A DNA stretch of 64,000 nucleotides from an uncultured Dongia sp. (GCF_936916975.1 NZ_CAKZGO010000025.1:1-64000), one strand, 5' to 3'; positions 8,782-20,553 are shown, counted from the first letter of the stretch. Numbers and translations are program-made. The notes: generated by a model from the sequence alone, not told the origin.

Positions 8782-9291
8782 ATGACCGAGATCAACCCGA
8801 CAGTTGCGGGAAGAGTATCGACCGCAAATCGGCCCTGGTGGGTCGGCCTTCCGATCATCGTGATGGGCGCCATTTGGCTATATGGCGGGGGTTCAATCCG
8901 TGCCACCACCGGCTTCATCGGCATCGGCCCGGCAGCCATCGTCGACACGGTGGGTGCCGCGCTCGTCGTGCTCGGTATCCTGCTCGTCATCCAGGCTCTT
9001 CGCGGCGTGCCGTTCACGCCGGAAGACGAAGAAGGCGCCAACGCCGCAGCACCACCATCCCGCAAGGCTTTCTGTCTGGCGCTCGGCGGTATCGTGCTGC
9101 CATTGGGCACGATCCAATGGCTGGGCTTTCCTTTGACGGCGATGCTCGTTTTTACACTCGTTACCCATGCCTTCGGATCGCGCCGCACAGTTCTGGACCT
9201 CGCCATCGGCTTGGCCTTGAGTTCTTTCTCCTGGTACGGCTTTTCCAAGCTTGGCATCGGCCTCGGCCATTTCCTGCCGCTCATCGGGTGA
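8782..9291 (+). CDS. tctB: Tripartite tricarboxylate transporter small membrane subunit TctB
   Basis: Small membrane subunit of the TTT transporter, 169 residues with four hydrophobic segments: near residues 16-38 ([19 protein letters not shown]), 50-72, 96-118 and 124-160. TctB proteins are poorly conserved, and the call rests on size, topology and position between tctC and tctA. I start at the ATG at 8782 ([10 protein letters not shown]); an upstream in-frame start would run through the spacer. The gene ends 4 nt before tctA. Confidence 0.85.
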
Positions 9292-9295
9292 TCAC

Positions 9296-10780
9296 ATGGA
9301 TATTCTCGATCAACTGATCAGCGGATTTTCCGTGGCCCTCCAGCCGATCAACCTGTTCTGGGCGCTGATCGGCTGTGCTCTCGGCACGGCGGTAGGCGTT
9401 CTTCCAGGTATCGGCCCCGCCCTCACCATCGCCTTGCTGTTGCCCGTCACAGCACAGATCGCGCCGGAATCAGCCTTCATCATGTTCGCCGGCATACTCT
9501 ATGGCGCGCTCTACGGCGGCTCGACCACGTCGATCCTTCTCAACACGCCAGGCGAAAGCGGATCCGTCATGACCGCGATCGAAGGCAATCTGATGGCACG
9601 CAAGGGACGCGGCGCGGCCGCATTGGCCACGGCCGCCATCGGCTCCTTCGTCGCCGGCACGATCGGTACCGCGGCACTCACGTTTCTGGCGCCTGCCATT
9701 GCAGAACTCGCCTTCATTTTCGGGCCGGAAGACTATTTCGCCCTGATGATCCTCTCCTTCACCTCCGTGGCCGTCGTAATGGGGAGGTCCCGCGTGCGCG
9801 GCTTCACCTCGCTCTTTTTTGGCTTGGCGTTGGGCACGATCGGTATCGACACGCAGACCGGTCAGGCGCGCATGGTTTTTGGCTCGCTCGAGCTGCTGGA
9901 TGGCATCCAGTTTACGGTCGTGCTGGTCTCGCTCTTTGCGATCGGCGAGACGCTTTATGTCGCCAGCCGCCAGGCAGCGGTGCCGAAGGTCATCAACCCG
10001 CTCTCCGGCGGCACCTGGATGACGCGGGACGATTGGAAGCGCTCGTGGAAGCCCTGGCTGCGCGGCAGCCTCATCGGTTTTCCGATCGGCTCCTTGCCGG
10101 CCGGGGGAACCGAGGTACCGACTTTTCTCTCCTATACATTGGAACGCCGGCTGACCAAACATCCGGAAGAATTTGGCAAAGGTGCTATCGAGGGCGTCGC
10201 CGGCCCTGAAGCCGCGAACAACGCCGCCGCTGCCGGTATTCTGGTGCCGCTCTTGACCCTTGGCCTGCCCTCGACAGCGACGGCAGCGGTGCTGCTGGCA
10301 GCTTTCCAGAATTATGGATTGCAGCCGGGGCCAATGCTTTTCACCACCAACCCGACTCTGCTCTGGGGCATGATCGCGTCGCTCTATGTCGGCAACGTCA
10401 TACTGTTGATCCTGAACTTGCCGCTGGTGGGGCTGTGGGTCCGTCTGCTGATGATTCCACGGCCCTACATTTATGGTGGCATCGTCATGTTTGCCATGGT
10501 TGGCGTCTGGGGCATCTCGACATCGTGGATCGACTTATTGCTGGTGGCCGGGCTGGGTCTCATCGGCTATCTGGCACGCGTCTACAGTTTTCCGGTGGCG
10601 CCAGCGTTGATCGGTCTGATCCTCGGGCCGCAGGCAGAAATCCAGCTACGCCGGGCCCTTGCCGTCAGCCAGGGCGATTGGAGCGTGCTCGTCGGGACGC
10701 CGATCGCCATCACGTTACTAGTTCTGGCTGCGGCCACATTTTTGCTGCCCATGCTGATCCGGCGGCTGAGCAGGATATAA
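9296..10780 (+). CDS. tctA: Tripartite tricarboxylate transporter large permease TctA
   Basis: Large membrane subunit, 494 residues, about 12 hydrophobic segments. It carries the two conserved TctA regions: [19 protein letters not shown] with [19 protein letters not shown] in the first half, and [18 protein letters not shown] with [21 protein letters not shown] in the second. It uses the ion gradient to import the carboxylate supplied by TctC. The start at 9296 ([10 protein letters not shown]) follows the tctB stop by 4 nt. Convergent with the GntR regulator, whose stop lies 19 bp away. Confidence 0.93.
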
Positions 10781-10799: not shown

Positions 10800-11516
10800 T
10801 CAGGCGGGTAAATTGCGGCGCGCGGGCTTCGCCGGTGGATTGGTCGCGAACGCCGCCTGCAGAGCGACCCGGGCCGCGCGGACATGCCGCCGCATCAGGA
10901 TCTCAGCGAGTTCGCCGTCATGCATCGCGATCGCCTCCGTGATACGCAGATGCTCTTTCCAGGCTTCGTGGCCGCGGCCGGGCACTGTGCGATGCAGGCG
11001 GCGGCAAAGTCGGAGCCGCGGATAAAATTGCTCGCATAGCAGTTCGGCGAGGATCGGGTTGCCGCTGCCATGGGCAATCCGCATATGGAAGTCTGTCTCC
11101 GGGTCGTCCTGCAAATAGGCACCCTGCGGATCGCGTTCAATCTCGCTGCGATGACCGGTCATCAGGTTTTCCAGGGCGGCAATCTCCTCTTTTGCCATAT
11201 GGTTGGCGGCGAGCCGGGCTGCCATCCCTTCCATCGCTTCGCGGACATCGAGCAGTGCCAGAAATTCTTCAGCACTCGGCTGTGCGACCCTCGCACCCTG
11301 GTTGACGACGTAAGTGACCAGGCCGCGTTCTTGCAAACGGCGAATTGCCTCGCGTACCGGGGCACGACTGGCACCATACTTCTTGGCGATGACTGGCTCG
11401 CTGAGTTTCTCGCCTGGGGCAAGTTCGCCGGTGAGAATCGCGCGCGTGAGATCCCTGTACAAGCGGGCCGTCAGCCCCTGCATCAACTCGATCTCGACAA
11501 CACCATCGTTCGGCAT
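10800..11516 (-). CDS. GntR-family transcriptional regulator, FCD (FadR C-terminal) subfamily
   Basis: 238-residue regulator. Residues about 15-80 form the GntR winged helix (LYRDLTRAILTGELAPGEKL, YGASRAPVREAIRRLQERGL), followed by an all-helical FCD ligand domain with the metal-binding pattern DPETDFH, EHLRITEAI and RRH. Such regulators usually bind a small carboxylate, often with Zn2+ or Ni2+, and leave palindromic operators when it is bound. Start at 11516 (MPNDGVVE) chosen because the fold begins there; longer frames have no family support. Likely controls prpDB-tctCBA through the palindromes at 5153 and 5216. Confidence 0.88.
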   Translation of the reverse strand: MPNDGVVEIELMQGLTARLYRDLTRAILTGELAPGEKLSEPVIAKKYGASRAPVREAIRRLQERGLVTYVVNQGARVAQPSAEEFLALLDVREAMEGMAARLAANHMAKEEIAALENLMTGHRSEIERDPQGAYLQDDPETDFHMRIAHGSGNPILAELLCEQFYPRLRLCRRLHRTVPGRGHEAWKEHLRITEAIAMHDGELAEILMRRHVRAARVALQAAFATNPPAKPARRNLPA

Positions 11517-11645
11517 CTCGGGTCCACCCTCGCTGGGTAACAAGCATAGCGGTTTCCGCCCGCATCGCGAAGGGACAATGATTCGGAATCTCCGCAATGC
11601 TACAGCACAAATTCGCCAAAGCTCTTGCCACATCAGGAGTCGGAA

Positions 11646-12627: not shown

Positions 12628-14298
12628 ATGAAGCAGACGACGCTGTCTGTAGTTCTGGAGGTTCAACCGCAGAGCGCCGACAATCTTTCGGCCCTCATAG
12701 GAGAACTGCGCCACCGGGAGGACAAACCACCACCTGGATCTAGCGAGCAATATGGCAGGCTTAAGAACGGCGTGCCGGTGCTGCATTTCATGTCCCTCAG
12801 CGTCTTTCCAAGTGCCGACTATGACCCAATCTTTGTCATCGAAGCCAATTTCGACGGACCCGCCGGCGTGTTCTGGGGTCAGTTGGAGGCAACGCTGGGG
12901 ATTGAGCTCCGTGCCATGCTGCGGTGCTGCAAGAAACCGGCAGACCAGGACGGCCCGCTCTATCTTGCTGTGACAAGCCCAGACTCCCGCGTTCCTTTGG
13001 CACCTTATCTCGAGGCGCGGACGCTCCGCCCCAGCGTGTTCCATCACGGAACGCGCGGAATGGACCGGGATCGAATTCTCCGCGAGGGCGAGCTCTTCTT
13101 GGCCACGAGACGCGTGCTGACGCAATCAAGCCCGACGCTTGCCAATCCATATCGAGCCATGACGGCCGAGCAGATCCATGCAAATTTGCGTGCAGCCTTG
13201 CAACCTGACTTCCCCTGGCTTGATATACCGGCGCCCATTCGCATCTCCCGGATCGAGCGTGCCGGCGATCTGGCTCGGCTCATTATTTTCCTGTTTCTGC
13301 TCCTGGCCTGCCTCTCTATTCCGGGCGCAGTCATCGCGTTCATATCTCCGTGGCAGCGCTTCCTCGTCATATTTGCTGTTCTGGGCTGCGTAGTGGCATT
13401 CGCCCTGTACCTTATGCGAGCCCCGCTGGAGGGTCTCGGCGCGCCCTCGCGCTCGGGCGGGTTGACGGCGAGCAGCCTGTCCCGGCGGAACAAGCTCACC
13501 TCCTTGGCGCATCCGGCCACCCTTGCAATAGCCGTGATGGTTCTCCTCGCGCTGTACATTGCCGTCGCGTCGGCCATTGGTACCGCGCTGGCCGTGCTGT
13601 TTACCGGCCTCCCCGTTGAAACCCTATGGTGCCCAACGATCCGGGTTGTTGCTCTCGGGCTCGTCAGTGTCTTTCTCTTCACGATTCCAGCGCTTGTGTT
13701 TTGGCTTCGCCGGTTGGAGCGACGGGACGCCTCCCACGATGCACCGCCAATCGATTCGGATATGATGCTCAAAATGGGGCAACGGGAAGACCGGATCGCG
13801 CAGAACCACATGGGCAGCGTCGTTCTGGTAAAGCCCGGCGTCCTGCGGACATTGTTGTTCCGGACGGGGCACCGGGGTCTCGGCCTCGTTCTGCGCGTTG
13901 TCGCCACCGACGGCTATTTGGGCAGCATGCGGACCATCCATTTTGCGCATTGGGCCTTCGTCAACAATGGCAGTCGGCTGATGTTCTTCAGCAATTTCGA
14001 CCACAGCTGGGAAAGCTATCTTGATGACTTTATCGAGAAGGCGCATGGCGGCCTGACGCTTGCGTGGGGCAGTTGCATCGGCTTTCCCCCCACGCGATTT
14101 CTTGTGCTGGACGGCGCCAGCCACGGCCGCAAATTCAAGGCCTGGGCGCGTCACTCGATGGCCGTCAGCCGATTCTGGTTCGCCGCCTATAAGGACTACA
14201 CGGTAGATCAAATCGAGCGGCATGCCCGGATCGCAAACGGGCTACGCCAAATTGCGCTGACGAAGAAGGAGGCCGACGCATGGGTAAGGGATCTATGA
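12628..14298 (+). CDS. Four-helix membrane protein with two similar soluble halves, partner of DyP peroxidase
   Basis: 556 residues; I do not recognise a named family. Residues about 1-200 are soluble and include LHFMSLSVFPSAD and FVIEANFDGPAGVFWGQLE. Four hydrophobic segments follow (about 213-240, 245-265, 290-325, 335-365). The soluble C-terminal part, about 390-556, contains IHFAHWAFVNN and LMFFSNFDHSWESYLDDF. The two soluble parts share an HF...NFD pattern, suggesting a duplicated ferredoxin-like (dimeric alpha/beta barrel) fold, the fold type also used by DyP peroxidases. Start at 12628 has GGGGG upstream. It overlaps the DyP gene by 19 nt, so the two are cotranslated and likely work together at the membrane. 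Confidence 0.75.
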   Translation: MKQTTLSVVLEVQPQSADNLSALIGELRHREDKPPPGSSEQYGRLKNGVPVLHFMSLSVFPSADYDPIFVIEANFDGPAGVFWGQLEATLGIELRAMLRCCKKPADQDGPLYLAVTSPDSRVPLAPYLEARTLRPSVFHHGTRGMDRDRILREGELFLATRRVLTQSSPTLANPYRAMTAEQIHANLRAALQPDFPWLDIPAPIRISRIERAGDLARLIIFLFLLLACLSIPGAVIAFISPWQRFLVIFAVLGCVVAFALYLMRAPLEGLGAPSRSGGLTASSLSRRNKLTSLAHPATLAIAVMVLLALYIAVASAIGTALAVLFTGLPVETLWCPTIRVVALGLVSVFLFTIPALVFWLRRLERRDASHDAPPIDSDMMLKMGQREDRIAQNHMGSVVLVKPGVLRTLLFRTGHRGLGLVLRVVATDGYLGSMRTIHFAHWAFVNNGSRLMFFSNFDHSWESYLDDFIEKAHGGLTLAWGSCIGFPPTRFLVLDGASHGRKFKAWARHSMAVSRFWFAAYKDYTVDQIERHARIANGLRQIALTKKEADAWVRDL

Positions 14299-15821
14299 CG
14301 CCGCCGGCCTCTCTAAGCTCGGCAGGATGGAAACTGAAGGCACCGCATGACGCGCAGGCGCAAGGCATCGTAGTCAGCGGATTCAGTGATCTTTACTGGG
14401 CAGAAGCCCTGTTCCTTGAGGCGGATCAACCCGGCTCCGGATGGATCGCCGCCCTCCGCACTGTGGCTCCCATAACTGACGCCACAGCAAAACAGGTGCG
14501 ATCTGCGGTCCTGGCTTTCACCTGTCCCGGGCTCGCGAAGCTCGGACTCGACGAGCACGATTTAGGTACCTTCGCGACGCCGTTTCGCGAAGGCATGTAC
14601 CAAGAAGATCGGCTGCGTCGACTGGGAGACAAGATCGACGGAAAATGGGAACCCACAGTGATTCCCGGCGGCCCCGTCTGGGGCGGCAATAATAACGCCC
14701 AAACGTCTGGCCCCTTCAAAACGGTCCACGCATTGCTGCTGCTTTATGACAAGACCGAAGCAGGTGTCCAGAACTGGGCCGACCAATTGGCCAAGACGCT
14801 TGCCCCATTTGGCGTCAACATCGTCCACAAGCTGTCGCTCAATCTGCAGCCAGGCGAAAACAAGATCGCACGCGAGCATTTCGGGTTTGCCGATGGCATG
14901 TCGCAACCGATTCCTTACGGCGATTCCGTCGTAGTGAGTAACAATCCATCGTCCAACAATCGGCCCTCCGAGAGAAATCCTTGGCATGGCGTGCCACTCG
15001 GCGAAATCCTGCTTGGCCACGCCAACGCACATCACGAGAAGGCGCCTGGACCGTATGTGAGAAGCAAGACAAATCGCGTTGCCGACCTGACGCGCGAGGG
15101 TGCGCCCGAAGGTTTTCTCAATCTCGGTCTGAACGGTAGTTATATGATCGTGCGGGAACTCCGCCAAGATGTCGCGGCTTTCTGGAATTCGCTGAAGGCC
15201 AACGCAGAGAGAATTCAACACCATGACCCGAGCGCAACCCCGGTAACAGCTGACTGGATCGCGGAGCGTATTATCGGCCGCACGCGGGACGGCCATCTGC
15301 TCTGCCCCGCCGGCGCCGTCCCGCCTGCGCCGGATGGACAACCCGAGAACGACGTCGGCTTCCTGCAGAAAGACCCATATGGCCATGGCTGCCCACTTGG
15401 CTCGCATGTCCGCCGCTCCAATCCTCGTGATGGGCTGGCGCCAGACCTCGCGGCCGCACAGACCATTCTCGATGCGGCGAACAATCATCGGATTCTACGG
15501 CGTGGCCGCAAATTTGGCCTGCCGGCGAGTGATCCCTACCACGATGACGGCCAGGAACGGGGCTTGCTTTTTATCTGTCTCAATTCCGATATCGCCCGGC
15601 AGTTCGAGTTCATTCAGCAAACCTGGGTTCTCAACCAGAATTTCGCCACCCTGTTCGACGAAACCGATCCTCTGGTCGGGCCGAAGGGCCGCTTCACCAT
15701 CCACGAAGAGGGAAAGCCGTTGCGACGAATCGTCGAGGTTGAGACCTTCATCCGAATGGCGGGCGGCGAGTATTTCTTCCTGCCCAGCATTCCCGCTCTC
15801 GATTATCTGGCGAGCTTGTGA
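14280..15821 (+). CDS. DyP-type haem peroxidase
   Basis: 513-residue dye-decolorising-type peroxidase. The catalytic Asp205 lies in FGFADGMSQP (the GxxDG signature), and the proximal haem ligand is His376 in GSHVRRSNPRDG; the C-terminal part has FICLNSDIARQFEFIQQ, typical of the long DyP class. No signal peptide is visible, so it is probably cytoplasmic or attached to the membrane protein encoded just upstream. The start at 14280 is set by a perfect AAGGAGG seven nt upstream, although an ATGA-type start at 14295 also exists. It overlaps the P450 gene by 4 nt (GTGA). Confidence 0.92.
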   Translation: MGKGSMTPPASLSSAGWKLKAPHDAQAQGIVVSGFSDLYWAEALFLEADQPGSGWIAALRTVAPITDATAKQVRSAVLAFTCPGLAKLGLDEHDLGTFATPFREGMYQEDRLRRLGDKIDGKWEPTVIPGGPVWGGNNNAQTSGPFKTVHALLLLYDKTEAGVQNWADQLAKTLAPFGVNIVHKLSLNLQPGENKIAREHFGFADGMSQPIPYGDSVVVSNNPSSNNRPSERNPWHGVPLGEILLGHANAHHEKAPGPYVRSKTNRVADLTREGAPEGFLNLGLNGSYMIVRELRQDVAAFWNSLKANAERIQHHDPSATPVTADWIAERIIGRTRDGHLLCPAGAVPPAPDGQPENDVGFLQKDPYGHGCPLGSHVRRSNPRDGLAPDLAAAQTILDAANNHRILRRGRKFGLPASDPYHDDGQERGLLFICLNSDIARQFEFIQQTWVLNQNFATLFDETDPLVGPKGRFTIHEEGKPLRRIVEVETFIRMAGGEYFFLPSIPALDYLASL

Positions 15822-17047
15822 CCGTGCCACGGGACGAGAATATCCTGCGGCAGAAGGCGGGTGGCCCGATGGTCTGGTTGATGGCACTGGCACCGCTTGT
15901 CTTTCGCTTGTTGCGCGCCGTCTGGCCGATTCCACACTTCGGCAAAACCTTTGTCGTGACCCGCTACGATGACGTGCGTGCGGTGTTTTTGGACGATCGA
16001 ACGTATCGGGTTCCCTATCGCGAGAAACTCGACGTCATCATGGGCGGTCAACCGTTCTTCCTCGGCATGGACGACACGGCGGACTATCGGCGAGATACGG
16101 GTGCCATGCGGCAGGTGGTATTGAGATCGGATGTTCCCACTCTCCTTGCGCCGGACGTCGAGCGACTCGCACAAGACGCCGTCGACAAGGGAAACGGCCA
16201 ACTCGAAGTGGTGGACTCGCTCGTGCGTCATGTCACCTTCAAGGTGTTCGGGAAGTATTTCGGCATAACCGATCCGCCGGGAGAAGATTTGCGCGTTTGG
16301 GCGACAAGATTGTTCGAGTTCCAGTTTGCCGATGCGGGCAACGACCCTGCGCTGAGATCGGAGGTTGACCATATTGCCCCGGCGCTCTGCGCGCATGTTC
16401 TGGCGCTGATCGAGGCACGCCTGCAATCCGGGATGTTCGGCGACGATGTCTTGGGTCGATGCTTGACGATGCAGGCCAAAGGCGAAATCGGATTCAGCGA
16501 CGATCAGATTCGCACTGCCCTGATCGGCTTCATGGTGGGCGGCCCACCGCAGCCGCCAATGGTGCTCCCGCAGGCGCTTGAACAATTGCTGCGCCGTCCC
16601 GACGCTTTGGCGCAGGCGCAACAGGCCGCCCGCGATGGCGACGATGCCCTACTTGCCGGTTTTGTCTTCGAGGCGATGCGCTTTGATCCTCTTGCGCCGG
16701 CTCTCCCCCGAGTAGCCACGCAGAAGAGCGTCATTGCAGTCGGTACACGCCATATGACGACTATTCCAAGCGGCGCCAACGTCTACGCAGCCTTCAGTTC
16801 GGCGATGATGGACGAAAGGCGGATACCGTCCCCGTTGCAATTCAATCCGCGACGGCAGCCGCACGAATACATCCATTTCGGCCATGGACTGCACACCTGT
16901 TTCGGCATTCACATGAATCAAGCTCTGCTGCCTTTGATGCTGAAGCCTCTTCTGAAGCGCAGCGGATTGCGCCGCGCGCCGGGCCGACCCGGCCACCTCA
17001 GCAAAAGCGGCGCGTTCTCCAATGCGATCAATGTTCTCTATGACTGA
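15818..17047 (+). CDS. Atypical cytochrome P450
   Basis: 409 residues. The haem-thiolate loop is HFGHGLHTCFG with Cys361, and the K-helix ExxR is EAMR at 285-288, so the P450 fold is clear. The I-helix around 236-250 reads GFMVGGPPQPPMV: the usual acid-alcohol pair (D/E-T) that delivers protons for O2 activation is absent. P450s without this pair often act on peroxides or isomerise them instead of using O2 and electrons from a redox partner. No ferredoxin or reductase gene is adjacent. GTG start at 15818 overlaps the DyP stop (GTGA), so peroxidase and P450 are translationally coupled. Confidence 0.9.
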   Translation: MTVPRDENILRQKAGGPMVWLMALAPLVFRLLRAVWPIPHFGKTFVVTRYDDVRAVFLDDRTYRVPYREKLDVIMGGQPFFLGMDDTADYRRDTGAMRQVVLRSDVPTLLAPDVERLAQDAVDKGNGQLEVVDSLVRHVTFKVFGKYFGITDPPGEDLRVWATRLFEFQFADAGNDPALRSEVDHIAPALCAHVLALIEARLQSGMFGDDVLGRCLTMQAKGEIGFSDDQIRTALIGFMVGGPPQPPMVLPQALEQLLRRPDALAQAQQAARDGDDALLAGFVFEAMRFDPLAPALPRVATQKSVIAVGTRHMTTIPSGANVYAAFSSAMMDERRIPSPLQFNPRRQPHEYIHFGHGLHTCFGIHMNQALLPLMLKPLLKRSGLRRAPGRPGHLSKSGAFSNAINVLYD

Positions 17048-17110: not shown

Positions 17111-19603
17111 TCAGGAGACGATTGCAGGCGCCATTGTGCGGGAAGATCGCATGTGATCTAGACTACGGCTAAGCGCCGCAGACACCTCTGCTGAATTGAG
17201 CGGAGCATGGACAATCTCGGTAATGCCCGCGGTCGCCAATACCCGCGCCGCATATTCGCTGCTCGATGGCATCGCAAAAACAATCGGGCGGGCAGTCGGC
17301 AGACGTTTCAGTGCGCAAGCCAGGTCGAATGCGACGTCCGAGCCTGGTTGATGACAGAGGAGCAGTGCTTGGAAACGTGTCGGGTCTTCACGGCAAGCGT
17401 TATAGGCCGTATCGGCTAGAGCATAGCCAACCGGCTCGAAACCGAGGGCGGCTACAATTTCTTCATTGCGCTGCAGCCGTGCTCGATCCGGATCGAACAG
17501 CAGAATGGTTTCTCCGCCAGCACGCGGTACCGGGGAATGCATCGGCCTTCCGACCAGGTATCGCGCGCCCTCGCGGCAAGGCAGCCAAATTTCGAAACGC
17601 GTGCCCTCGCCCGGCGCACTTTGCACGTGGAGCGCTCCAGCATGGCCGCGCACGATTTCCAGGACCGAAGCCAAGCCGAGGCCGTTACCTTCTGCCCGGG
17701 TGGTGAAGAAGGGGTCGAATATCTGCTTCAACGTCACCTCGTCCATGCCACGACCCGAGTCGATGACAGTGATGACAGCGTAATTGCCCGCGCAGCAGGG
17801 GCCATGCGACAGCTGTCGCGGGACATCGATTGTCTGCCTGTCGATCTCGATAAGAACACGACCGACGTTGTCCATGGCCTGAGCGGCATTGTTGCACACG
17901 TTGAGAACAACCTGCTGGAGTTGCTCAGCTAGGCCAGAGACGATGATATGGCTCTTCTCCGTCTTGACAACGATTGTGAAATCGCACGGTGACGCTGCAC
18001 CGAGCAGCGAGACGGTCTCTTCAAGCAAGGGAACAAGCGGGATGTCGTTCGCTTCACCGCCGACGCCGCGGCCAAAAGTAAGGATCTGGCTCACCAGATC
18101 CCGGGCGCGTTCGCCGGCGCGCCGTATTTCGGCCAACGTCTCGGTCGGCTCACGGCCGCTTTCCAGATAGCTGGCCGCGATTTCGGTATAGCCAAGGATA
18201 GCGCCAATGATGTTGTTGAAGTTATGCGCGATGCCACTTGCGAACGCGCCGATGGTCTCCATACGGCGCGCCTGCTGCATGGCCTGTTCCAGCCGCTGGA
18301 CAACCTGCGCCAGGGCATCGCGCTCGACGGCATGGGTAAGCGCGTCGCGCGCCATGCGGAAAAGGCCAAACTCGGCCGGCGCCACTCGGAAATCACCGTC
18401 GATCGAATCGAATGCCAGCAAGCCATCAACACAACGATCGGTACAGCTGGGGATACAAAACCAGCTTTCGAGATCTCCGGGCGCGCCCTTCTTCTGTAAT
18501 ATCCGGGCGTCGCGGCTTCTGACCATGATCTCGGCGTGATCGTGGGAATGCAGCTGCCTGGCCAGCGAAATTGCCCGGGCCGGCCAGCTTGGCGAATTTC
18601 GCACGCTCAACCGCCGCCACTGATAGCAGCGCTCCCCATTGGCCAGAATGAAATAGGCCCGGTCGGCACCGATGGTCCGGCCGAGTTCTTCAAGGGCCCG
18701 CTCAATTTCATGATCGATCGTATCCGGACGAACATCGATGAGGCGGGTGGAAATCGTGGCGATGACGTGCTCGACTTGCGCCGCATGCTGTGCCGCCGCA
18801 GCCCGACCTTGCAAGCGCAGCGCCAGGAACGCGATCAACACGACCAGCGCCAGAGATATGCTGTAAAGGAGGAACCGGTAGACTTCCGCCTTGTTCTCGC
18901 TGACGTCGATATATCCATCGAGAAGAGTGCGCAATTCGGCCACCTGCGCTTCCGTCGGCACAGCGAAGATATCACGCAGATAGCCGTTCGTCGCCGGTAG
19001 CAGGTTTCGCAGCATCAGCGCATGCGCCACTGCGGCCTGCATATCCGCACTCTCCGGCGCCGCGAGTTTGACAGCACGCATTTTGGCAAGACGGCGGTCG
19101 AACTCATCAAGCGCGTCAGGCGACGTATCGATGGTGAGGCGCAGGAGCGCCGTGGCAACACCGCTGATGACATGCGCCCGTTCCGACTCTCCCTCTTTTT
19201 CCTGGAACCGCGACGTGAAGATATTGAAGTTGGAGAGCGAATTCCTGAAAATTGCATTGCGGCTCTTGAAATCCTCGGTGAGGGTCTCCTGCCGGCGTAC
19301 CATCACTTCGAGTTCCGACAGTTCCAAACGGTAAGCATTTTCTCGGGGGCCGAGTGCGCCGAGGCGGTCGAGGGTCGTGTAGAGAGTGTCGATTTCCTGA
19401 ACCAGCGAATCGTAGTTCCGCAGCATGCCTGCGCGCGCCAGCAATACGTCCCGATGCAGCGCGCTTTCCGTGGCCGCAAATCGATCCAATTCGTTGACCG
19501 CAAAACGCATGCGATTGGTATCGGCATTTGTTCCGGAAAGCATCAACCAGGTCAACAGCGCCAACAGCACGACGGAGAGCGTCAATGTGCGGGACATGTT
19601 CAT
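17111..19603 (-). CDS. Membrane sensor histidine kinase with degenerate C-terminal receiver
   Basis: 830 residues. A first membrane segment (about 7-24) and a second (246-264) bracket a helical periplasmic sensor that resembles the DAHL domain (ALHRDVLLARAGMLRNYD). A GAF-like region (about 280-430) follows, then the dimerisation helix with phospho-acceptor His460 (IAHNFNNIIGAI), an ATPase domain with GRGMDEVTLKQIFDPFFTT and GLGLASVLEIV, and a receiver-like end (about 705-825). The expected phosphate-accepting Asp in the receiver is replaced (ALLLCHQPG), so it is a pseudo-receiver. ATGA overlap with the dihaem peroxidase gene upstream. The OmpR-type gene at 21230 is its likely partner. Confidence 0.9.
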   Translation of the reverse strand: MNMSRTLTLSVVLLALLTWLMLSGTNADTNRMRFAVNELDRFAATESALHRDVLLARAGMLRNYDSLVQEIDTLYTTLDRLGALGPRENAYRLELSELEVMVRRQETLTEDFKSRNAIFRNSLSNFNIFTSRFQEKEGESERAHVISGVATALLRLTIDTSPDALDEFDRRLAKMRAVKLAAPESADMQAAVAHALMLRNLLPATNGYLRDIFAVPTEAQVAELRTLLDGYIDVSENKAEVYRFLLYSISLALVVLIAFLALRLQGRAAAAQHAAQVEHVIATISTRLIDVRPDTIDHEIERALEELGRTIGADRAYFILANGERCYQWRRLSVRNSPSWPARAISLARQLHSHDHAEIMVRSRDARILQKKGAPGDLESWFCIPSCTDRCVDGLLAFDSIDGDFRVAPAEFGLFRMARDALTHAVERDALAQVVQRLEQAMQQARRMETIGAFASGIAHNFNNIIGAILGYTEIAASYLESGREPTETLAEIRRAGERARDLVSQILTFGRGVGGEANDIPLVPLLEETVSLLGAASPCDFTIVVKTEKSHIIVSGLAEQLQQVVLNVCNNAAQAMDNVGRVLIEIDRQTIDVPRQLSHGPCCAGNYAVITVIDSGRGMDEVTLKQIFDPFFTTRAEGNGLGLASVLEIVRGHAGALHVQSAPGEGTRFEIWLPCREGARYLVGRPMHSPVPRAGGETILLFDPDRARLQRNEEIVAALGFEPVGYALADTAYNACREDPTRFQALLLCHQPGSDVAFDLACALKRLPTARPIVFAMPSSSEYAARVLATAGITEIVHAPLNSAEVSAALSRSLDHMRSSRTMAPAIVS

Positions 19604-20553
19604 GGTTGGAGTCCCCCGGTCAGCCCGCTTCGCTCGCCGGTCAGGGTTCGCAAAAAGGTAGCGATCGAGGCGATTTCCGCAGCATTGATGCCGGCATTCA
19701 ATTGCGACGCGGCCATGCGACGGATCGCATCTTCCAGCGTGGGCGCGCTGCCGTCATGGAAGTAAGGTGGCGTAATGGCGATATTGCGTAGGCTGGGAAC
19801 GCGCAGCAGGAGCGGTTTGGGCGATGCCAGGGGCTTGAACAGGCCATGCCTGGAAAACAGATTTCCGCCAATGTTGACGCCTTGATGGCAGGAGGCGCAA
19901 CCCACTGACTTGAACAGCTGATATCCTCGGACCTCGGAGGGCGTCAGAGCGGTTGTCTCGCCGGCCAGCCAACGATCAAAGCGGCTGTTCGGCGTGATCA
20001 GGCTGCGCTCGAAGCTGGCCACGGCATCCAGGAGGTTCTCAACATCCGGTTGATGATTGTAGACAGCCTTGAAACGACCGACCATGGCCGAATCTGTCAT
20101 CAATCTGGCAACCGCCACCTCCGGCGACGAGCCCATGATCTGCGGATTGCGAAGGGAGGCCGCAGCCTGCTCCTCCAGCGTGCGGAATTGACCTTCCCAG
20201 TTGAAACGGAAATTAAGAGCCGCATTGAATACGGTCGGCGTGTTGAGTGGCAAAAGTTTCCCGTCCATTCCTGTATCAAGCGCCCGCACACTGGCGCCGT
20301 TGGTCGCCAGATCATGGCAGGTCGAACAGCTGCGCGAGCCGTCCGCCGAGAGCCGTGGGTCGCGGAACAGCCGGCCGCCAAGTTCCACGCGCGCCGCCTG
20401 CTGTACGCCAACCGAGAGCAGCGGGGCAATCGGCTCTTCGCTGATATGGCGGGATTGAAGCCGAGGCGGCGGCACCGCGTTGCCCATCGTTAGCCAGAGG
20501 ACGAATGTGCACAGCGGCGCCACAATCCAGCCTTTGTAGTGTCTTCGGCGCAA
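19600..20553 (-). CDS. Dihaem cytochrome c peroxidase family protein
   Basis: 317 residues with an N-terminal membrane or export segment (GWIVAPLCTFVLWLTMG). Two c-type haem sites are visible: CSTCH at 76-80 and CASCH near 215; PSLRNIAITPPYFHDGSAPTL near the C-terminus is typical of CcpA/MauG-type proteins. It would reduce H2O2 or oxidise a partner in the periplasm. Its stop overlaps the kinase start (ATGA). Co-expression with a membrane kinase that has a periplasmic sensor suggests that the peroxidase product or redox state is sensed; this is inference. Confidence 0.9.
   Translation of the reverse strand: MRRRHYKGWIVAPLCTFVLWLTMGNAVPPPRLQSRHISEEPIAPLLSVGVQQAARVELGGRLFRDPRLSADGSRSCSTCHDLATNGASVRALDTGMDGKLLPLNTPTVFNAALNFRFNWEGQFRTLEEQAAASLRNPQIMGSSPEVAVARLMTDSAMVGRFKAVYNHQPDVENLLDAVASFERSLITPNSRFDRWLAGETTALTPSEVRGYQLFKSVGCASCHQGVNIGGNLFSRHGLFKPLASPKPLLLRVPSLRNIAITPPYFHDGSAPTLEDAIRRMAASQLNAGINAAEIASIATFLRTLTGERSGLTGGLQP

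Follow-up and report, generated by a model that had tools for sequence, protein, structure and literature searches.

A membrane protein, a DyP-type peroxidase and a cytochrome P450 encoded by overlapping genes and, in other bacteria, by a single chain

Three overlapping genes of an uncultured Dongia sp. encode a membrane protein, a DyP-type haem peroxidase and a cytochrome P450, and in other bacteria the same three parts are joined in one polypeptide. The genes lie in the 64,000-nucleotide stretch of contig C25 (NZ_CAKZGO010000025.1, positions 1 to 64000) that was analysed here and is called the window. That they make up one functional unit is close to certain, and a physical complex of DyP, P450 and membrane protein, extrapolated to members in which the parts are not fused, is very probable; given the single-chain form, there is little doubt that the fused members are one physical enzyme, and the trio is likely to be one too. 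An initial annotation of the window had proposed a partnership of peroxidase and P450 located at the membrane, and the natural single-chain fusions, the conserved overlaps and the co-inheritance of the parts strongly support this proposal. The best explanation as a whole, to which we give a little less than an even chance, is a membrane-anchored two-haem enzyme that would act stepwise on a lipophilic substrate, with a P450 that is peroxide driven in the form found here.

The genes of the trio follow one another on the + strand in the order membrane protein, DyP peroxidase, P450. Their coordinates bear out the overlaps of 19 and 4 nt that had been reported across the three genes.

12628..14298, + strand: membrane protein gene (556 aa)
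14280..15821, + strand: DyP-type haem peroxidase gene (513 aa)
15818..17047, + strand: cytochrome P450 gene (409 aa)
14280..14298, + strand: 19-nt overlap of the membrane-protein and DyP genes, read from the sequence; start codon kept in 38/44 loci
15818..15821, + strand: 4-nt overlap GTGA of the DyP and P450 genes, read from the sequence; start codon kept in 34/36 loci

Both start-codon tallies refer to separate-gene loci, with the window entered once. If the DyP instead began at the ATG at 14295, its gene would overlap the membrane-protein gene by 4 nt (ATGA), but the start that yields the 19-nt overlap is better kept (38/44 separate-gene loci versus 28/44 for the ATG). Upstream, about 1 kb lies between the trio and a GntR-type regulator gene; the next gene downstream encodes a DAHL-domain histidine kinase. 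Since both of these neighbors are on the opposite strand, the trio looks like a self-contained operon; promoter and terminator scans returned nothing above chance.

The wider neighborhood includes, upstream, a gene judged by eye to encode a TctA-like tricarboxylate transporter (9251 to 10780, + strand) and the regulator gene, of GntR/FCD type (10800 to 11633, − strand). On the other side, the histidine kinase gene (17111 to 19603, − strand) and a gene for a MauG-type di-haem peroxidase (19600 to 20553, − strand) adjoin the trio. In a search at E 1e-10, the GntR, TctA-like, MauG and DUF1127 genes of the window had no relatives near other units, and the histidine kinase had just two weak ones.

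When the membrane protein was used as a tblastn query against plasmids, the same trio came up in Skermanella, and single-chain proteins came up in Pararhizobium (1,423 aa), Novosphingobium aromaticivorans pNL2 (1,443 aa) and Sulfitobacter (1,620 aa), in which the P450 comes first, the membrane protein is in the middle and the DyP is last. The genome-wide survey of the trio that had been suggested as a check was also run. Relatives of the membrane protein are encoded at 447 places in a species-level genome collection, and the best 80 of the 447 were analysed with HMMs of the parts. A P450 was present in 72 of these 80 loci, among which close relatives recur; because the loci had been picked by the membrane protein alone, this frequency is not an effect of search selection. 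The order of the window, with separate genes for membrane protein, DyP and P450, was found in 35/80 loci, and a single-chain P450-membrane protein-DyP fusion was found in 30/80 (29 plus L058, which is incomplete at a contig end); the three plasmid fusions are additional to the 80. In five loci a membrane protein-DyP fusion came after a separate P450 gene, and two had the P450 upstream of the other two genes. No P450 was found in the remaining 8/80. Membrane protein and DyP occurred without a detected P450 in L042, L046, L056, L062, L065 and L081, some on contigs that end early, and such loci indicate that the P450 is not always needed.

Most hosts of the 80 loci were Alphaproteobacteria, and the others included Acidobacteriota, Bacteroidota, an actinomycete MAG, Ramlibacter and a Citrobacter contig. 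Recurrence of the trio in many genera of several phyla means that the arrangement in the window is not due to chance. Within its own class the unit was patchy (11/289 genomes with any match, few of them full-length), and none was detected in the same-genus genomes searched. The initial annotation had named a rare and unconserved trio as evidence against its reading; the unit is patchy, as that would have it, but well conserved where present. Distances among the P450s and among the DyPs were correlated over 73 loci (r 0.95; 0/1000 permutations as high), which shows co-inheritance rather than contact and in large part reflects shared ancestry of the whole locus. Chance co-transcription of three unrelated genes would draw support only from how common gene overlaps are among bacteria at large. 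The recurrence across phyla, the conserved overlap starts and the co-inheritance all speak against such accidental neighbors, the natural fusions refute them in effect, and we give this explanation negligible weight.

More distantly related genomes show a four-gene version (L104:16-3352), with a small gene of its own for each half of the membrane protein between the P450 and DyP genes. A stop-split membrane-protein stretch of Methylocapsa acidiphila (L044:7644-8765), where no DyP or P450 was found, looks like a decayed remnant. The Citrobacter sp. FP75 contig (L045) carries a complete trio in an enterobacterium, an atypical host, as a result of either recent transfer or contamination. Rhizobium and Sinorhizobium plasmids encode membrane protein-DyP fusions without a P450 (L008:3289-11516, L010:7281-10205 and L011:6058-7746), and genes for a CHAT-domain protein (L008), an endonuclease/exonuclease/phosphatase and a non-specific nuclease lie near them. 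Just upstream of the fusion gene (L006, L049, L055, L069 and others), a neighbor cluster of 32 loci has a class III adenylate/guanylate cyclase-TPR or BTAD/TPR gene; downstream, 29 loci have a Crp/Fnr regulator gene on the opposite strand.

Pfam domains were assigned to the second protein (Dyp_perox_C) and the third (p450) but not to the membrane protein, which had no family in Pfam, NCBIfam, PHROGs or PADLOC. Relaxing the Pfam threshold to E 0.1 for the window protein and to E 5 for the relative at L046 gave no family either. The idea of a phage-defence or phage protein was dropped, as PADLOC and PHROGs were without a match. The AlphaFold model of the protein is confident (pLDDT 89.5) and has two ferredoxin-like halves with membrane helices between them.

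12628..13227, + strand: N-terminal ferredoxin-like half, residues about 1-200 (secondary structure of the model; hhalign to the C-terminal half)
13249..13725, + strand: membrane-helix region, with helices 208-229, 231-239, 242-262, 296-326 and 330-366 in the model and hydropathy windows of >1.6
13756..14295, + strand: C-terminal ferredoxin-like half, the most conserved part (TIHFAHW, SNFDHSWESYLDDF)

A loop in the membrane-helix region (residues 273-293) is modeled with low confidence. The C-terminal half contains five invariant columns among 47 sequences (H438, W442, N456, W461 and Y464), and the two halves are homologous to each other (hhalign E 1.3e-5 over 140 columns). In fold comparison, the membrane protein matched WhiE-ORFI (9lmn; Z 15.0, rmsd 3.7, 221 residues) and Abx(+)O (9ltx; Z 12.5). 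The Z of 15.0 for the ABM barrel exceeds the range that the tool gives for common arrangements and stands well above the other rows; Foldseek alone gave no match at <0.001. As modeled, the membrane protein is a duplicated ABM-like alpha+beta barrel around predicted membrane helices. A profile match to CSC1/ERD4 channels (E 5e-5) was set aside, as the fold match goes to ABM barrels. Some proteins with the ABM fold bind aromatic substrates or haem, and the haem-degrading enzymes IsdI and MhuD appear lower in the list of fold matches. By analogy, a substrate-holding role for the membrane barrel is possible. The N terminus of the DyP carries no twin-arginine motif, and the model and the charge pattern suggest that all domains are probably on the cytoplasmic side.

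The DyP of the window scored above the cut-off for PF20628 and just below that for TIGR01413 (93.2 bits, E 1.8e-26; cut-off, 100.5 bits). Despite the latter, its motifs and Pfam score place its membership of the DyP superfamily beyond doubt. The GxxDG aspartate, the proximal histidine and the distal arginine are present in it and kept in all 88 DyP sequences, and the nearest solved relatives belong to the class C/D group (PDB matches 8re3, 5c2i and 4g2c).

14883..14897, + strand: DyP GFADG motif with the catalytic Asp (invariant, 88/88)
15390..15407, + strand: DyP CPLGSH (in CPLGSHVRR) with the proximal haem-ligand His (invariant, 88/88)

The P450 of the window scored above the cut-off for PF00067 (E 2.3e-11), and its AlphaFold model (pLDDT 92.7) has the P450 fold. 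This fold is that of an ordinary bacterial P450, with the top rows, P450BioI and CYP134A1-like enzymes included, tied within 1 Z; CYP152 and CYP74 were absent among the best 50 to 60 P450 matches listed, and for CYP152 this held in comparisons of both sequence and fold. The enzyme had been described as lacking the acid/alcohol pair of the I-helix while keeping the Cys ligand and ExxR, and the residues agree with that description.

16538..16561, + strand: P450 I-helix segment GGPPQPPM, with P244 in place of the acid and Q245 in place of the alcohol; helix broken at 242-245 in the model
16670..16681, + strand: P450 ExxR motif EAMR (Glu and Arg invariant, 73/73)
16877..16906, + strand: P450 haem loop FGHGLHTCFG with the thiolate ligand Cys361 (invariant, 73/73)

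PDB and family alignments both place the acid and alcohol positions of canonical P450s at P244 and Q245. Of the 73 unit P450s, 33 have Pro-Gln at these two positions, 32 have Pro-Thr, 6 have Asp-Thr and 2 have Glu-Pro, which puts Pro at the acid position in 65/73 and Asp or Glu there in 8/73. Pro-Gln is the pair of separate trios, and Pro-Thr is that of 31 fusions and Reyranella. Aligned control P450s mostly had Asp or Glu at the acid position, with L129 (Val-Thr) and L137 (Ile-Ala) as exceptions. When 16 further P450s of the class were added as outgroups, the tree united all unit P450s in one clade (100/99), in which the Pro types clustered (82/99) separately from the acid-retaining ones; with this small outgroup, the grouping tentatively suggests that the acid was lost once within the unit P450s. 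Since 8/73, all distant members of the unit, retain the acid, six of them with Thr beside it as in an O2-type motif, the partnership does not require that O2 activation be lost, and the loss of the acid is, judged from these alignments, a trait of a lineage rather than a requirement of the DyP-P450 partnership.

Electron supply was addressed through five redox-partner families searched genome-wide (Fer2, NAD_binding_1, Flavodoxin_1, Fer4_15 and Pyr_redox_2). None had a match inside the window, in keeping with the earlier remark that no redox partner gene lies nearby, and the three fusion proteins contain no Pfam domain of a fused flavin or iron-sulfur reductase, unlike self-sufficient P450s. 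On contig C22 of the same genome, another P450 adjoins a ferredoxin and a reductase, so a redox partner is available in trans to the P450 of the window. In seven Sphingomonas loci (L015, L017, L019, L020, L021, L024 and L026), an adrenodoxin-type ferredoxin ORF lies on the same strand about 2 to 4 kb downstream of the P450, which probably represents local synteny and not a dedicated partner.

These observations bear on the reading that the P450 is an ordinary O2-dependent enzyme, reduced by a chromosomal ferredoxin in trans, and that the tethered DyP clears H2O2 from uncoupled turnover. The complete P450-ferredoxin-reductase set elsewhere in the genome, the Asp-Thr pair of six unit P450s and the control P450s that also lack the acid (Val-Thr and Ile-Ala) are consistent with it. 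We nevertheless consider it unlikely, if credible: the window P450 lacks both residues and its I-helix is broken there in the model, a guard would not need fusion in a fixed domain order, and DyP and membrane protein also occur without the P450, which argues that the DyP is not merely its guard. The alternative raised in the initial annotation, a P450 that works with peroxides or one that rearranges an oxygenated product, is plausible by analogy. The replaced acid/alcohol pair, the interruption of the I-helix in the model and the lack of a local redox partner point this way, and we put a peroxide-driven P450 at nearly an even chance.

A working scheme for the favored two-haem enzyme can be outlined. 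The membrane protein, an ABM-like barrel held at the bilayer by its membrane helices, would dock DyP and P450 side by side and might hold or present a substrate, presumed to be lipophilic. The DyP would oxidize this substrate with H2O2 or a lipid peroxide and hand its product on to the P450; trapping of a radical by O2 might make this product a hydroperoxide. Without the acid/alcohol proton relay, a P450 of the window lineage would work with the peroxide bond rather than with O2 and NADPH, acting on it as a peroxygenase or hydroperoxide isomerase. We lean slightly toward DyP and P450 acting in sequence on one substrate. No substrate or product gene was conserved near the units, and we know of no DyP that has lipid hydroperoxide formation as its physiological task. 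A more specific version is doubtful: the unit could be an independently evolved bacterial counterpart of the fungal and animal peroxidase-P450 oxylipin synthases, in which the DyP would make a membrane lipid or isoprenoid hydroperoxide, the relay-less P450 would isomerize it and the ABM-like barrel would join both.

Membrane anchoring and two peroxide-compatible haem sites would also suit a peroxide-stress enzyme that rids the bilayer of lipid hydroperoxides or quinone-derived peroxides, in which the P450 clears organic hydroperoxides and the DyP clears H2O2 under stress control. The cyclase-TPR or BTAD/TPR genes (32 loci) and Crp/Fnr genes (29 loci) beside fusions point to regulated expression, whereas the trio of the window has no such neighbors. 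The patchy distribution, in both the class and the genus, would be odd for a housekeeping detoxifier, and we regard this role as decidedly unlikely. P450nor also works without O2 activation, and a P450 that reduces or rearranges a small bound molecule such as NO without a proton relay, with the DyP handling reactive by-products, can be envisaged. The sequence comparison with the PDB did list P450nor (E about 8e-9), but under many monooxygenases, and no NO-metabolism gene was seen conserved near the units, which leaves this reading highly improbable.

The stepwise two-haem enzyme favored here combines catalytic parts from known superfamilies. Fungi and oomycetes are known to have peroxidase-P450 tandems built with a different peroxidase, and no description of a DyP-P450 pair or fusion was found in the literature searched, mainly open-access full text. 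A chain that holds both a DyP and a P450 would be a novel combination of two haem enzymes and would provide a natural peroxidase-P450 tandem for expression as a single protein. It would also give a physiological task to some DyPs, a group in which few natural roles are known. As members of one P450 clade occur with and without the acid/alcohol pair in the same setting, the need for the pair becomes directly testable.

Fungal P450s fused to COX-like linoleate dioxygenases (LDS, DOX-AOS and EAS) cleave or rearrange peroxides (PMC13049297), and peroxidase/dioxygenase-P450 fusions of oomycetes make up family CYP5619 (PMC5919972). Like these, the fused units (30/80 loci and three plasmids, with separate genes in the window) combine a peroxidase-type haem enzyme with a thiolate-haem P450 in a single polypeptide. 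The peroxidase part differs, being COX-like in fungi, a peroxidase/dioxygenase in oomycetes and a DyP here; only DyP and P450 domains scored above the cut-off in the trio and fusions, and no COX-like animal haem peroxidase domain did. The order P450, barrel with membrane helices, DyP, with a membrane barrel as third part, also sets the unit apart. The analogy to fungal oxylipin synthesis drawn in the initial annotation thus holds for the architecture but not for the peroxidase, which is a DyP rather than COX-like, and conserved lipid-pathway genes were not seen near the units. The CYP152 peroxygenases are marked by a replaced acid/alcohol pair in the I-helix (PMC5818669, PMC10988616), a trait that the window P450 shares with the fatty-acid peroxygenases of that family (BS-beta, SP-alpha and OleT). 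In CYP152 the replacement is Arg-Pro, with the Arg binding the substrate carboxylate; this motif is absent from the unit P450s, which have Pro-Gln in separate trios and mostly Pro-Thr in fusions. In ABM-type barrels (WhiE-ORFI, 9lmn; Abx(+)O, 9ltx), as in the membrane protein, two ferredoxin-like halves close one barrel, whereas the membrane protein has membrane helices inserted between the halves and is without a Pfam sequence match. Finally, the C-terminal half of the window DyP aligns with class C/D DyPs (Alr1585, 5c2i; 8re3; DyP2, 4g2c) over about 230 residues and shares their GxxDG motif, proximal His and distal Arg; the window DyP differs from them in its TIGR01413 score just under the cut-off and in a constant neighbor or fusion partner, the membrane barrel protein.
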